A program made the translations under genes and the position numbers. Positions 84 to 30,716 of a stretch of 36,331 nucleotides of DNA are shown here, piece after piece (position 1 is the stretch's first letter; each line of letters begins with the position of its first letter). The stretch covers positions 1 to 36,331 of the forward strand of contig CALVSW010000002.1 in the NCBI GenBank assembly GCA_944359625.1, written 5' to 3'. Source of the DNA: an uncultured Bacilli bacterium. GTDB lineage: Bacteria > Bacillota_I > Bacilli_A > RF39 > UBA660. The notes beneath the pieces were generated by a model. It saw only the letters and a list, made by a program, of their open reading frames with translations, was not told where the DNA came from and ran no database searches.

Positions 84-312
84 TTAGTCTAAATTTAACA
101 ATCTTTTACTTATCGTGACATCAGATTGCAGATTGATTACCGGACGCAAGCCATAGCCGATGGTCACCCAGCCGTAGCCGTAAGCATAGCCAGCCGCGTA
201 CTGACGGAACCCAACAGCAGAAGAGGCGCCAACGCTGAAAGAGGACGGCGACATGGACCAATAATAGCCATTTTGGTAGAGATAAGTTAAGCGATTCATA
301 TATCCGGTGGCA
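84..312 (-). other. Orphan variable-domain cassette A (5'-truncated, DGR-variable-repeat-like)
   Basis: A 71-codon minus-strand frame (84-299) encodes YLYQNGYYWSMSP, a variable stretch, then GLRPVINLQSD and a short unique tail. Homology to the four cassettes at 29.2-30.5 kb starts sharply at TTGCCACCGG (about 312 reading leftward) and runs to about 111. No ribosome binding site precedes the first ATG, and that ATG lies inside the conserved block (ATGYMNRL), so this is the 3' end of a gene without its body. The core is visibly GC-rich compared with the AT-rich neighbours. It sits just after the stop of the Met-gamma-lyase-like gene, on the same strand. The variable codons are mostly NNC/NNT. 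The fold is probably a C-type-lectin/FGE-like ligand-binding domain (inference from the C-terminal LRPV-type motif). It could be a silent donor, a remote DGR target or a dead fragment. Confidence 0.7.
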
Positions 313-27822: not shown

Positions 27823-27957
27823 TAGTGTTGAAGAGTCTTACAAACTTGGAGCTATTATGGGTGATTCCGTTATCAATCAATTAAGTGTATGATAAAGTCA
27901 TAAAATAAGGTGGTACCGCGAAATTTTCGTCCTTATAATTTATGGCTTTTTTATTTT
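27823..27957 (+). promoter_or_regulatory. T-box leader of tyrS
   Basis: AAGGTGGTACCGCG (27907-27920) followed by CGTCCTT is the conserved T-box antiterminator, whose TGGT bulge pairs with the NCCA end of uncharged tRNA. The competing fold around it (CATAAA.../...TTTATG) ends in T6 before the tyrS Shine-Dalgarno, so uncharged tRNA-Tyr should increase tyrS expression. Only about 80 bases separate the previous stop from the T-box, so stem I is short or extends into the end of the upstream gene. A TAC at 27839-27841 is a candidate specifier, not proven. Confidence 0.85.
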
Positions 27958-27977
27958 TTAGGGAGGAATTATTTAAT

Positions 27978-29213
27978 ATGAAAAAGATGACAAATTGGGA
28001 AGAATTAGAGTGGCGTGGTTTAATTAAAGATGTTGCTGGTAATGATATTGCTGATAAAATTAATAATGAAAGTGTAACTTTTTACTGGGGAACTGATCCA
28101 ACAGCAGATTCACTTCATTTAGGACACTATTCATCTTTAATTACTGCTAAAAGATTAATGAAGATGGGACATAAACCAATTTTATTATGTGGTGGTGCAA
28201 CTGGACGTATTGGCGATCCAAGACCAACTAGTGAAAGAGAAATAATTAGTATTGATACTCTTAATCATAATGTTGAATGTATCCGTAAACAAATTGATAA
28301 AATCTTTGATGGTAAAGCTAAATTAGTAAATAATTATGATTGGTTTAAAGGTTATGAATATTTAGATTTTTTAAGAGATATTGGAAAATATATTAATGTT
28401 AATTATATGTTATCTAAAGATATTATTAATAGACGTTTAGAAACTGGTATTACTTATGCTGAATTTAGTTATATGTTAATTCAAGGATATGACTTTTTAA
28501 ATATGTATCGTCGAATGAATTGTATTATGCAAGTTGAAGGTAGTGACCAATGGGGGAATATTACTACGGGCATTGATTTAATTAGAAAAATAGATAATAA
28601 AGAAGCTTATGGTTTTACAATGCCTTTAATATTAGATAGTAATGGTAAGAAATTTGGTAAAAGTGAAGGAAATGCTTTATGGTTAGATATTAATAAAACT
28701 AGTAGTTATGCTTTATATCAATATTTATTAAATACAGATGATAGTAAAGTATTAGAATATTTAAAAGTATTTACTTTTTTAACTCCTGATGAAATAATGA
28801 CTATAGTTCATGAACATGAAAAAGCACCTCATTTAAGATTAGCTCAAAAGACTTTAGCTCAATGTATAATTACTGATTTACATGGTGAAGAAGAATATTT
28901 AAAAGCTGTAAAAATAAGTGAAGCTTTATTTAATGAAAATATTACTTCTTTAAGTGCTAAAGAAATTGAAGAAGCATTAAAAGATGTAGCTCATGTGGAA
29001 ATAGAAGAAGGAAATATTGTTGATGTCTTAACAAAAGCAGGTATTTTTAAAAGTAAAAGAGAAGCTAGAGAGTTAATTAGTGGTAATGCTTTATCATTAA
29101 ATAATAAAAAGATAAATGATTTAGAATATATTATAACTAAAAAAGATGTTATTGATAATTTAATAGTAATAAAAAAAGGTAAAAAAACATACTACTTAGG
29201 GATTATGAATTAA
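27978..29213 (+). CDS. Tyrosyl-tRNA synthetase
   Basis: About 411 residues, class Ic synthetase. HIGH motif HLGH at 47-50 (DSLHLGHYSSL), KMSKS-equivalent KFGKS at 225-229, typical for bacterial TyrS, tyrosine-binding YMLIQGYDF and QVEGSDQWGN, and a C-terminal S4 RNA-binding domain (from KAGIFKSKREARELISG). The start is the ATG after GGGAGG; a longer frame from 27942 lies in the T-box terminator. Its 3' end abuts the cassette array, and cassette B reads into its last codons on the opposite strand. Confidence 0.96.
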   Translation: MKKMTNWEELEWRGLIKDVAGNDIADKINNESVTFYWGTDPTADSLHLGHYSSLITAKRLMKMGHKPILLCGGATGRIGDPRPTSEREIISIDTLNHNVECIRKQIDKIFDGKAKLVNNYDWFKGYEYLDFLRDIGKYINVNYMLSKDIINRRLETGITYAEFSYMLIQGYDFLNMYRRMNCIMQVEGSDQWGNITTGIDLIRKIDNKEAYGFTMPLILDSNGKKFGKSEGNALWLDINKTSSYALYQYLLNTDDSKVLEYLKVFTFLTPDEIMTIVHEHEKAPHLRLAQKTLAQCIITDLHGEEEYLKAVKISEALFNENITSLSAKEIEEALKDVAHVEIEEGNIVDVLTKAGIFKSKREARELISGNALSLNNKKINDLEYIITKKDVIDNLIVIKKGKKTYYLGIMN

Positions 29214-29236: not shown

Positions 29237-29425
29237 GATTGCAGATTGATTACCGGACGCAAGCCAAAGCCGTGGGTCACATAGTCGTAGCCGAAAGCAC
29301 TGCCAGCCGCGAACTGATAGAACCCATAAGCAGCCGAAGCGCCAACGTTGAAAAAGGACGGCGACATGGACCAATAATAGCCATTTTGGTATAGATAAGT
29401 TAAGCGATTCATATATCCGGTGGCA
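29237..29425 (-). other. Variable-domain cassette B
   Basis: Encodes YYWSMSPSFFNVGASAAYGF to GLRPVINLQS, then reads out of the homologous region into sequence shared with the tyrS 3' end. The homology stops at CTGCAATC, earlier than in C-E. It pairs best with cassette A (same SPS start of the variable part and same length). Of 14 codons that differ between A and B, 11 differ only at first or second position (for example TAT/AGT, CGT/TAT, ATC/CAC). It carries no start signal of its own. Confidence 0.7.
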
Positions 29426-29559
29426 AAGAATTTGATGACTTTGCAATTGAAAGTTTTATTAAATTTGGTAATGATAATGTAAATTTCAAGATAAAAAAAC
29501 ATAATTATTTCATTATTAAAATGTCATATTTTTATTAATAATTTTTACATTAAAATAAC

Positions 29560-29767
29560 TTAACCAAATATCATGACACCAGATTGCAGATTGATTACCG
29601 GACGCAAGTCACGGACGTCGGCCACCCAGTAGCCGTTAGCATTGCCAGTCGCGCTCTGATAGAACTCGCGAGCAGAAGAGTTGCCAGAGTAGAAAATGCC
29701 CGGCGACATGGACCAATAATAGCCATTTTGGTAGAGATAAGTTAAGCGATTCATATATCCGGTGGCA
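29560..29767 (-). other. Variable-domain cassette C
   Basis: Encodes YYWSMSPGIFYSGNSSAREF to DLRPVINLQSGVMIFG and a stop at 29560. It belongs to the same subgroup as D and E (SPGIF, 64 codons from MNRL). Differences to D are again mostly NNC/NNT codons with the third base kept (TAC/AAC, AAC/AGC, TAT/ATT, AGC/CAC, AAT/TAT). An open frame runs upstream through the spacer to 29844 (MFFYLEIY...), but it lacks a Shine-Dalgarno and is probably not a true N-terminus. Confidence 0.7.
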
Positions 29768-29901
29768 AAGAATTTGATGACTTTGCAATTGAAAGTTTTA
29801 TTAAATTTGGTAATGATAATGTAAATTTCAAGATAAAAAAACATAATTATTTCATTATTAAAATGTCATATTTTTATTAATAATTTTTACATTAAAATGT
29901 C

Positions 29902-30109
29902 TTAATCAAGTATCGTGACATCAGATTGCAGATTGATTACCGGACGCAAGCCATAGCCGCCGGTCACCCAGTAGTAGCCGGCATAACCAGTCGCGTGCTG
30001 AATGAACCCACGAGCATAAGAGCTGCCAGAGTTGAAAATGCCCGGCGACATGGACCAATAATTGCCATTTTGGTAGAGATAAGTTAAGCGATTCATATAT
30101 CCGGTGGCA
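29902..30109 (-). other. Variable-domain cassette D
   Basis: Encodes NYWSMSPGIFNSGSSYARGF to GLRPVINLQSDVTILD with a stop at 29902. It is almost identical to cassette E. The only amino-acid change is Asn/Tyr (AAT/TAT) before YWSMSP, plus one silent change. This marks D and E as a recent duplication, and the single replacement is at the first base of an AAT codon. Confidence 0.7.
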
Positions 30110-30243
30110 AAGAATTTGATGACTTTGCAATTGAAAGTTTTATTAAATTTGGTAATGATAATGTAAATTTCAAGATAAAAAAACATAATTATTTCATTAT
30201 TAAAATGTCATATTTTTATTAATAATTTTTACATTAAAATGTC

Positions 30244-30451
30244 TTAATCAAGTATCGTGACATCAGATTGCAGATTGATTACCGGACGCAAGCCATAGCC
30301 GCCGGTCACCCAGTAGTAGCCGGCATAACCAGTCGCGTGCTGAATGAACCCACGAGCATAAGAGCTGCCAGAGTTGAAAATGCCCGGCGACATGGACCAA
30401 TAATAGCCATTTTGGTATAGATAAGTTAAGCGATTCATATATCCGGTGGCA
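30244..30451 (-). other. Variable-domain cassette E (array head)
   Basis: Encodes YYWSMSPGIFNSGSSYARGF to LQSDVTILD. Upstream of TTGCCACCGG the sequence is unrelated to the array spacer and belongs to the 5' region of the neighbouring coat-like gene, giving the same sharp boundary as cassette A. There is no gene body upstream, so transcription, if any, would come from outside. Confidence 0.7.
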
Positions 30452-30500
30452 ATAACTTCTTTTTATATTTTTCATATAATAGGTAGAAGGGAGTTTTATT

Positions 30501-30716
30501 ATGTATTATGATAATTACCGACCTATGAGACCTGGACGTCCTAATGGTGATGATCGTTTTATAGTACCTTTTTTATTAGGAGGTTTAGCTGGTAGTGCTG
30601 CAGTTGGTCTAACAAGACCACGTCCTGTATTTGTAAATCCACCATATCGACCTTATCCACCATATTATGGTAGTCCTTATTATTATAATAGTAATAGTTT
30701 CTACGGTTATTATTAA
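30501..30716 (+). CDS. Small Tyr/Pro-rich protein, possible spore coat component
   Basis: 71 residues: MYYDNYRPMRPGRPNGDDRF, a glycine-rich hydrophobic segment (FLLGGLAGSAAVGL, about 25-38), then PPYRPYPPYYGSPYYYNSN. GAAGGGAG provides the Shine-Dalgarno. Composition is like small spore-coat or surface proteins of Firmicutes (inference). Convergent with the SEDS gene, 3' ends overlapping by 4 bp. Confidence 0.65.
   Translation: MYYDNYRPMRPGRPNGDDRFIVPFLLGGLAGSAAVGLTRPRPVFVNPPYRPYPPYYGSPYYYNSNSFYGYY

Follow-up and report, generated by a model that had tools for sequence, protein, structure and literature searches.

In the multi-target diversity-generating retroelement (DGR) of Treponema denticola ATCC35405, one template repeat (TR) and one reverse transcriptase (RT) serve seven target genes, and the remote variable repeats (VRs), which lie in target genes, show adenine-biased differences from the TR (PMC4891356). 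In the silent-cassette systems of antigenic variation, such as vls of Borrelia and pilS of Neisseria, many promoterless partial copies share constant arms with one expressed locus and evolve in concert with it, and variants are reshuffled by gene conversion from fixed donors. Group IIC introns insert just behind intrinsic-terminator hairpins. In the draft genome of a small uncultured bacterium of the class Bacilli (GCA_944359625.1; here G000), we find about 40 body-less copies of the variable end of one surface-type gene, situated just behind other genes and altered in the adenine-specific style of a DGR, which suggests, tentatively as regards any donor role, that a retroelement hypermutator has merged with a silent-cassette repertoire. 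As in the Treponema system, a single diversification system appears to have several dispersed VRs with adenine-biased differences from the TR; however, about 42 VRs in G000 have no gene body and lie in intergenic sites (at terminators in the cases detailed below), and there are five TRs. Canonical DGRs of the same family, for example those on contig C8 of genome G021 and contig C10 of the congener G002, share with G000 the target gene type, the hairpin behind the VR and an adenine-rich TR with the same spacer, but have the accessory protein Avd and an RT beside the TR; at the DNA level no orphan cassettes were found in G002, whereas G000 has orphan cassettes and no assembled RT or Avd. With vls and pilS the G000 cassettes share the many promoterless partial copies, the single expressed locus, the constant arms and the concerted evolution, but the silent copies themselves carry retroelement-type mutations and are dispersed singly as well as in arrays, and their donation to the expressed gene is inferred only. 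With group IIC introns they share the position behind terminator hairpins, although no ribozyme or intron RT is part of the roughly 190-bp cassettes.

The window analysed (the whole stretch of positions 1 to 36,331 of contig CALVSW010000002.1, here C2) has a GC content of 0.25 and contains a tandem array for which TRF reports a period of 342, 3.5 copies and a score of 1983. The array consists of four minus-strand cassettes of 183-186 bp with a GC of 0.49-0.50, rising to 0.57-0.58 in the VR cores. Three of these share a 342-bp unit with an AT-rich spacer (GC 0.18), while the outermost has unrelated DNA upstream. Each encodes only FATGYMNRLTYLYQNG(Y/N)YWSMSP ... GLRPVINLQS, the last 60-odd codons of a gene without the gene body, and the open reading frames called here reach 94-99 aa only because spacer codons precede the block. 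Hence, the tandem array of gene-end cassettes described in the initial annotation is confirmed, although a fifth cassette of the window had escaped it. The features are collected in the table below.

Features of the window and its cassette array (positions are those of the window; VR core positions are approximate)
Feature	Position	Strand	Details
Tandem array	29237-30452		Period 342
Orphan VR cassette 1 (outermost)	30268-30450	-	VR core 30283-30392 (VR start 30392); 5' block GCCACCGGATATATG to CTGCAA; VR aligned to TRs; 5' junction AAGAAGTTATT/GCC, empty in G002
Spacer between cassettes 1 and 2	30109-30267	-	AT-rich
Orphan VR cassette 2	29926-30108	-	VR core 29941-30050 (VR start 30050), identical to that of cassette 1
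Spacer between cassettes 2 and 3	29767-29925	-	AT-rich
Orphan VR cassette 3	29584-29766	-	VR core 29599-29708
Spacer between cassettes 3 and 4	29425-29583	-	AT-rich (GC about 0.18); a similar spacer separates cassettes in the arrays on contigs C1, C8 and C20
Orphan VR cassette 4	29239-29424	-	TR3-type, 3 bp longer; VR core 29254-29366
Fifth orphan VR cassette	126-311	-	Outside the array; aligned with the other VRs
Tyrosyl-tRNA synthetase gene	27942-29213	+	Convergent with the cassettes; PF00579, SYY C-terminal and S4 domains
71-aa ORF	30501-30716	+	No family; in G002 only about 30 bp separate the regions matching the tyrS side and this side

A tblastn search of the G000 draft (1.25 Mb, 40 contigs, 91% complete) returned 57 matches. 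Of these, 43 are full-length VRs that we aligned, 42 of them orphans in intergenic sites and one at the end of a full-length gene, the remainder being TRs, truncated copies and weak hits. The gene, on contig C35, is the only close full-length one in the assembly and specifies a 692-aa protein with a likely N-terminal membrane segment (our reading) that ends in the cassette domain. It is followed by a GC-rich hairpin, gctctccacctga-ctcc-tcaggtggagagc, read directly from the sequence, and then by a TR. For the target domain, in which a C-type lectin fold would be a mark of a DGR, no PDB relative was found by sequence, and only a weak match to DUF6273 was obtained, in relatives only. Four more TRs lie on contigs C10, C14 and C20. 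The TRs lie outside coding sequence, and each is followed by about 200 nt of conserved spacer ending in a terminator-like hairpin. This spacer is conserved in G002, G021 and G001 (the last a sister species), and a consensus fold has 16 pairs changed on both sides and kept, although on only five rows. In G021 and G002 the same gene type, hairpin, TR and spacer sit near Avd (by PF22296, NF033474 and phrog_3206) and an RT with GNMxSQ and YMDD motifs; in G002 a transposase-like ORF lies between the target and the TR.

About a quarter of the cassettes elsewhere in the genome are frame-shifted with stops (reading LN-stop-stop-YPNG), and the possibility that the cassettes are small protein genes is rejected on this ground. 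Since they are not conserved as coding sequence, they act at the DNA level or not at all. One cassette sits inside a 475-aa reading frame (G000:C19:10756-12183) that runs on into the next gene. In two others, at C11:29769 and C19:6348, the VR has been deleted between short repeats, leaving only the constant ends. Each full cassette carries about 68 bp of upstream constant sequence, the VR and the 3' sequence at the IMH (priming-site) position of the expressed gene, and nothing else. They are not plain cDNA inserts of the TR, because they carry these 68 bp upstream and 17 bp or more downstream that the TRs lack. A virus origin found no support either, as searches with the cassette, the TR and the target protein gave no confirmed relative in viral contigs.

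The variation is adenine-specific. Against the nearest of three TR types, and over the 43 aligned VRs, A positions of the TR were changed in 609 of 1162 comparisons (52.4%), in contrast to 81/1376 for C, 95/1156 for G and 54/1020 for T (5.3-8.2%). Much of the non-A remainder looks like TR-type difference or mosaicism. The 68-bp upstream block, which is full of adenines, shows no excess at A, so mutagenesis ends where TR homology ends. A comparison of strains, which had been named beforehand as a test and for which two pairs were comparable, gave a mixed outcome. Locus L137 (G001 contig C66), which is 97.7% identical to G000 contig C9, carries the same orphan cassette, and its VR differs at 20 of 98 sites, 14 of them at TR1-A positions (28 of the 98 columns), against 20 of 1103 outside the VR. 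C66 is binned with G001 but looks like a strain of the G000 species. In the second pair (locus L139 against G000 contig C20, 99.7% identical) the cassette is identical over 267 bp. Hence, rewriting in place is seen, but not at every site or time depth, and at C9 it could instead reflect conversion from unsampled cassettes.

About 13 of 15 cassette sites in G001 match cassette sites in G000 by flanking genes, and a further one is a deleted remnant; several G001 cassettes look decayed. Yet the constant blocks group by genome, with a mean distance of 0.052 within G000, 0.115 within G001, 0.157 between the two and 0.168 for matched sites. The last value is from twelve pairs, one of which (G001:C4:14425 with G000:C12:12571) in fact comprises two different sites; the eleven true pairs give about 0.166 by hand. 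Two positions are nearly fixed differences, and each genome's expressed gene carries its own genome's version. In addition, cassette C1:112736 has exactly the expressed VR and shares about 26 bp more of the gene's 3' end, which is best read as gene-to-cassette transfer; no case of donation into the gene is shown.

The cassettes also appear to be mobile. At C12:12571 G001 lacks the cassette, at G001:C4:14425 G000 lacks it, and in both cases the insertion lies in the T-tract behind a terminator hairpin. Upstream flanks hold a terminator-like site in 16 of 35 cases, against 2.3% of random places, an enrichment that is overstated because the control was not restricted to intergenic places. The upstream gene mostly points the same way, and only one cassette lies between divergent genes. 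G002 lacks the cassette at the two sites examined, that of the window array and C2:108442. On C20 (7200-14100), a stretch with a phage-type integrase and a Fic-like ORF is flanked on both sides by cassette-TR-cassette units, and L139 has different DNA just upstream of the shared efp-side cassette.

Searches with PF00078, the G002 RT and PF22296 found no DGR RT or Avd in the drafts of G000 or G001, whereas PF22296 does find Avd, an accessory protein that is common but not universal in DGRs, in G002 and G021. Hence, the G000 system is DGR-like in action, with the RT not located. The two RTs present in G000 are rejected as the DGR RT, as they are retron-like by family and lack the GNMxSQ motif of the G002 and G021 enzymes. 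They lie at C18:1-2525 and C1:71641-75192; one is of type II-A with a weak NDT-like neighbor and the other of type III-A/Ec107-like. C35 ends in what looks like the end of an IS element just past the TR, where assemblies break. The 77-79 bp ends of this contig are inverted copies of each other and 100% identical to DNA beside a two-ORF transposase-like element of unidentified family in G002 (contig C21; locus L114:6585-6663). We take the RT-Avd operon as probably unassembled, although its loss remains a live alternative.

The initial annotation had offered silent donor cassettes, as in vls or pilS systems, or dispersed DGR variable repeats as readings of the array, and this interpretation is partly supported. 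Both halves gain support: the DGR half from the TRs and the adenine-concentrated variation, and the silent-cassette half from the full-length gene, the orphan copies evolving in concert with it and the one cassette that equals its VR. Neither cassette-to-gene donation nor, in this assembly, the RT itself is shown, although a congener has the latter. The condition under which only a decayed repeat family would remain (no full-length gene, no RT and cassettes identical between strains) does not hold as a whole, as the gene exists and one of the two comparable cassettes differs.

The reading we favor, as somewhat more likely than not, is that the array belongs to a genome-wide family of mobile orphan VR cassettes, rewritten in trans by a DGR and recombining with one expressed gene. 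The sequences themselves establish the position of the cassettes behind genes, and in the terminator T-tract at the two sites occupied in only one species, the TR-templated adenine-biased substitutions, the difference of this type in one orphan cassette between close strains, the joint evolution of the constant blocks of cassettes and gene within each genome, and the identity of one cassette to the expressed VR. The rest is inferred: TR-RNA would be copied by a DGR RT-Avd acting in trans, its mutagenized cDNA would home into any copy with a VR and IMH, and recombination through the shared arms would then move variants between cassettes and gene, such that the cassettes serve as a silent repertoire. 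The repertoire reading fits the exchange with the expressed gene and the long retention of the cassettes. A published reconstitution in E. coli found that a DGR edits reporters at many chromosomal positions and without RecA (PMC12875486), so orphan copies with VR and IMH would be expected targets. We are highly confident that the variation is DGR-made and fairly confident of exchange with the gene, whereas the donor role remains tentative. This reading rests on MAGs throughout and is weakened by the missing RT and Avd, the identical cassette of the second strain pair, the apparent gene-to-cassette direction of the one identity and the decayed look of several G001 cassettes. In its boldest form, which is possible though less likely than not, a DGR writes new variants off-line in dozens of silent intergenic cassettes that are mobile into terminators, and homologous exchange then loads them into one expressed surface gene, separating mutation from expression.

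The alternative that survives best, and which remains possible, is that the cassettes are a selfish by-product, that is, a non-autonomous, MITE-like mobile family that happens to carry a DGR VR and IMH. In this view they spread into terminators, where they do little harm, and the DGR rewrites them because it cannot tell them from its target, without any donor role. This is consistent with the insertions at terminator T-tracts at sites that differ between species, the spread of frame-shifted B-type cassettes that cannot encode the protein end, the deleted and truncated copies, and the absence of the cassette at the two sites examined in G002. Against it stand the matching of about 13 of 15 sites and the sharing of each genome's constant-block version by its expressed gene, which points to exchange with the gene, though not to a benefit. 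It is less likely that the RT and Avd were lost in the G000/G001 lineage and that what remains is an old DGR-made repertoire shuffled by homologous recombination without new mutagenesis. The absence of both proteins from two independent drafts and the identity of the L139 and C20 cassettes favor such a relic. However, each genome's cassettes fit that genome's own TR types, the C9/L137 difference creates VR words not seen among the other cassettes we aligned, the five TRs keep their adenines, and the IS at the end of C35 lies where an operon would be lost from a draft. An ordinary decayed repeat family or assembly artefact with chance variation, despite some truncated or internally deleted copies, is very unlikely given the 42 full-length orphans with adenine-biased variation, the matching sites in two separate MAGs and the strain-level difference concentrated in the VR.

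DGRs rewrite genes, but most of the variable repeats described here are not in genes. If the cassettes feed the expressed locus, a bacterium can mutate many copies without risking the working protein, joining retroelement hypermutation and silent-cassette switching, two mechanisms treated as separate. Even if selfish, the cassettes are a mobile variable-repeat family found at terminators and would show how DGR targets multiply. We found no description of such orphan VRs in the open-access papers searched, subscription papers and preprints being mostly outside this search. Orphan copies may not be unique to this genus: most candidates in other genera are contig ends, but a body-less C-terminal domain of this type lies internally between two genes in another genus of the family (genome G034, C32:28339-31560), and a 141-aa partial gene occurs in genome G223. 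Across the family, 69 of 291 genomes hold this VR domain at E <= 1e-8, some with 16-19 scored copies, many of them in long ORFs.
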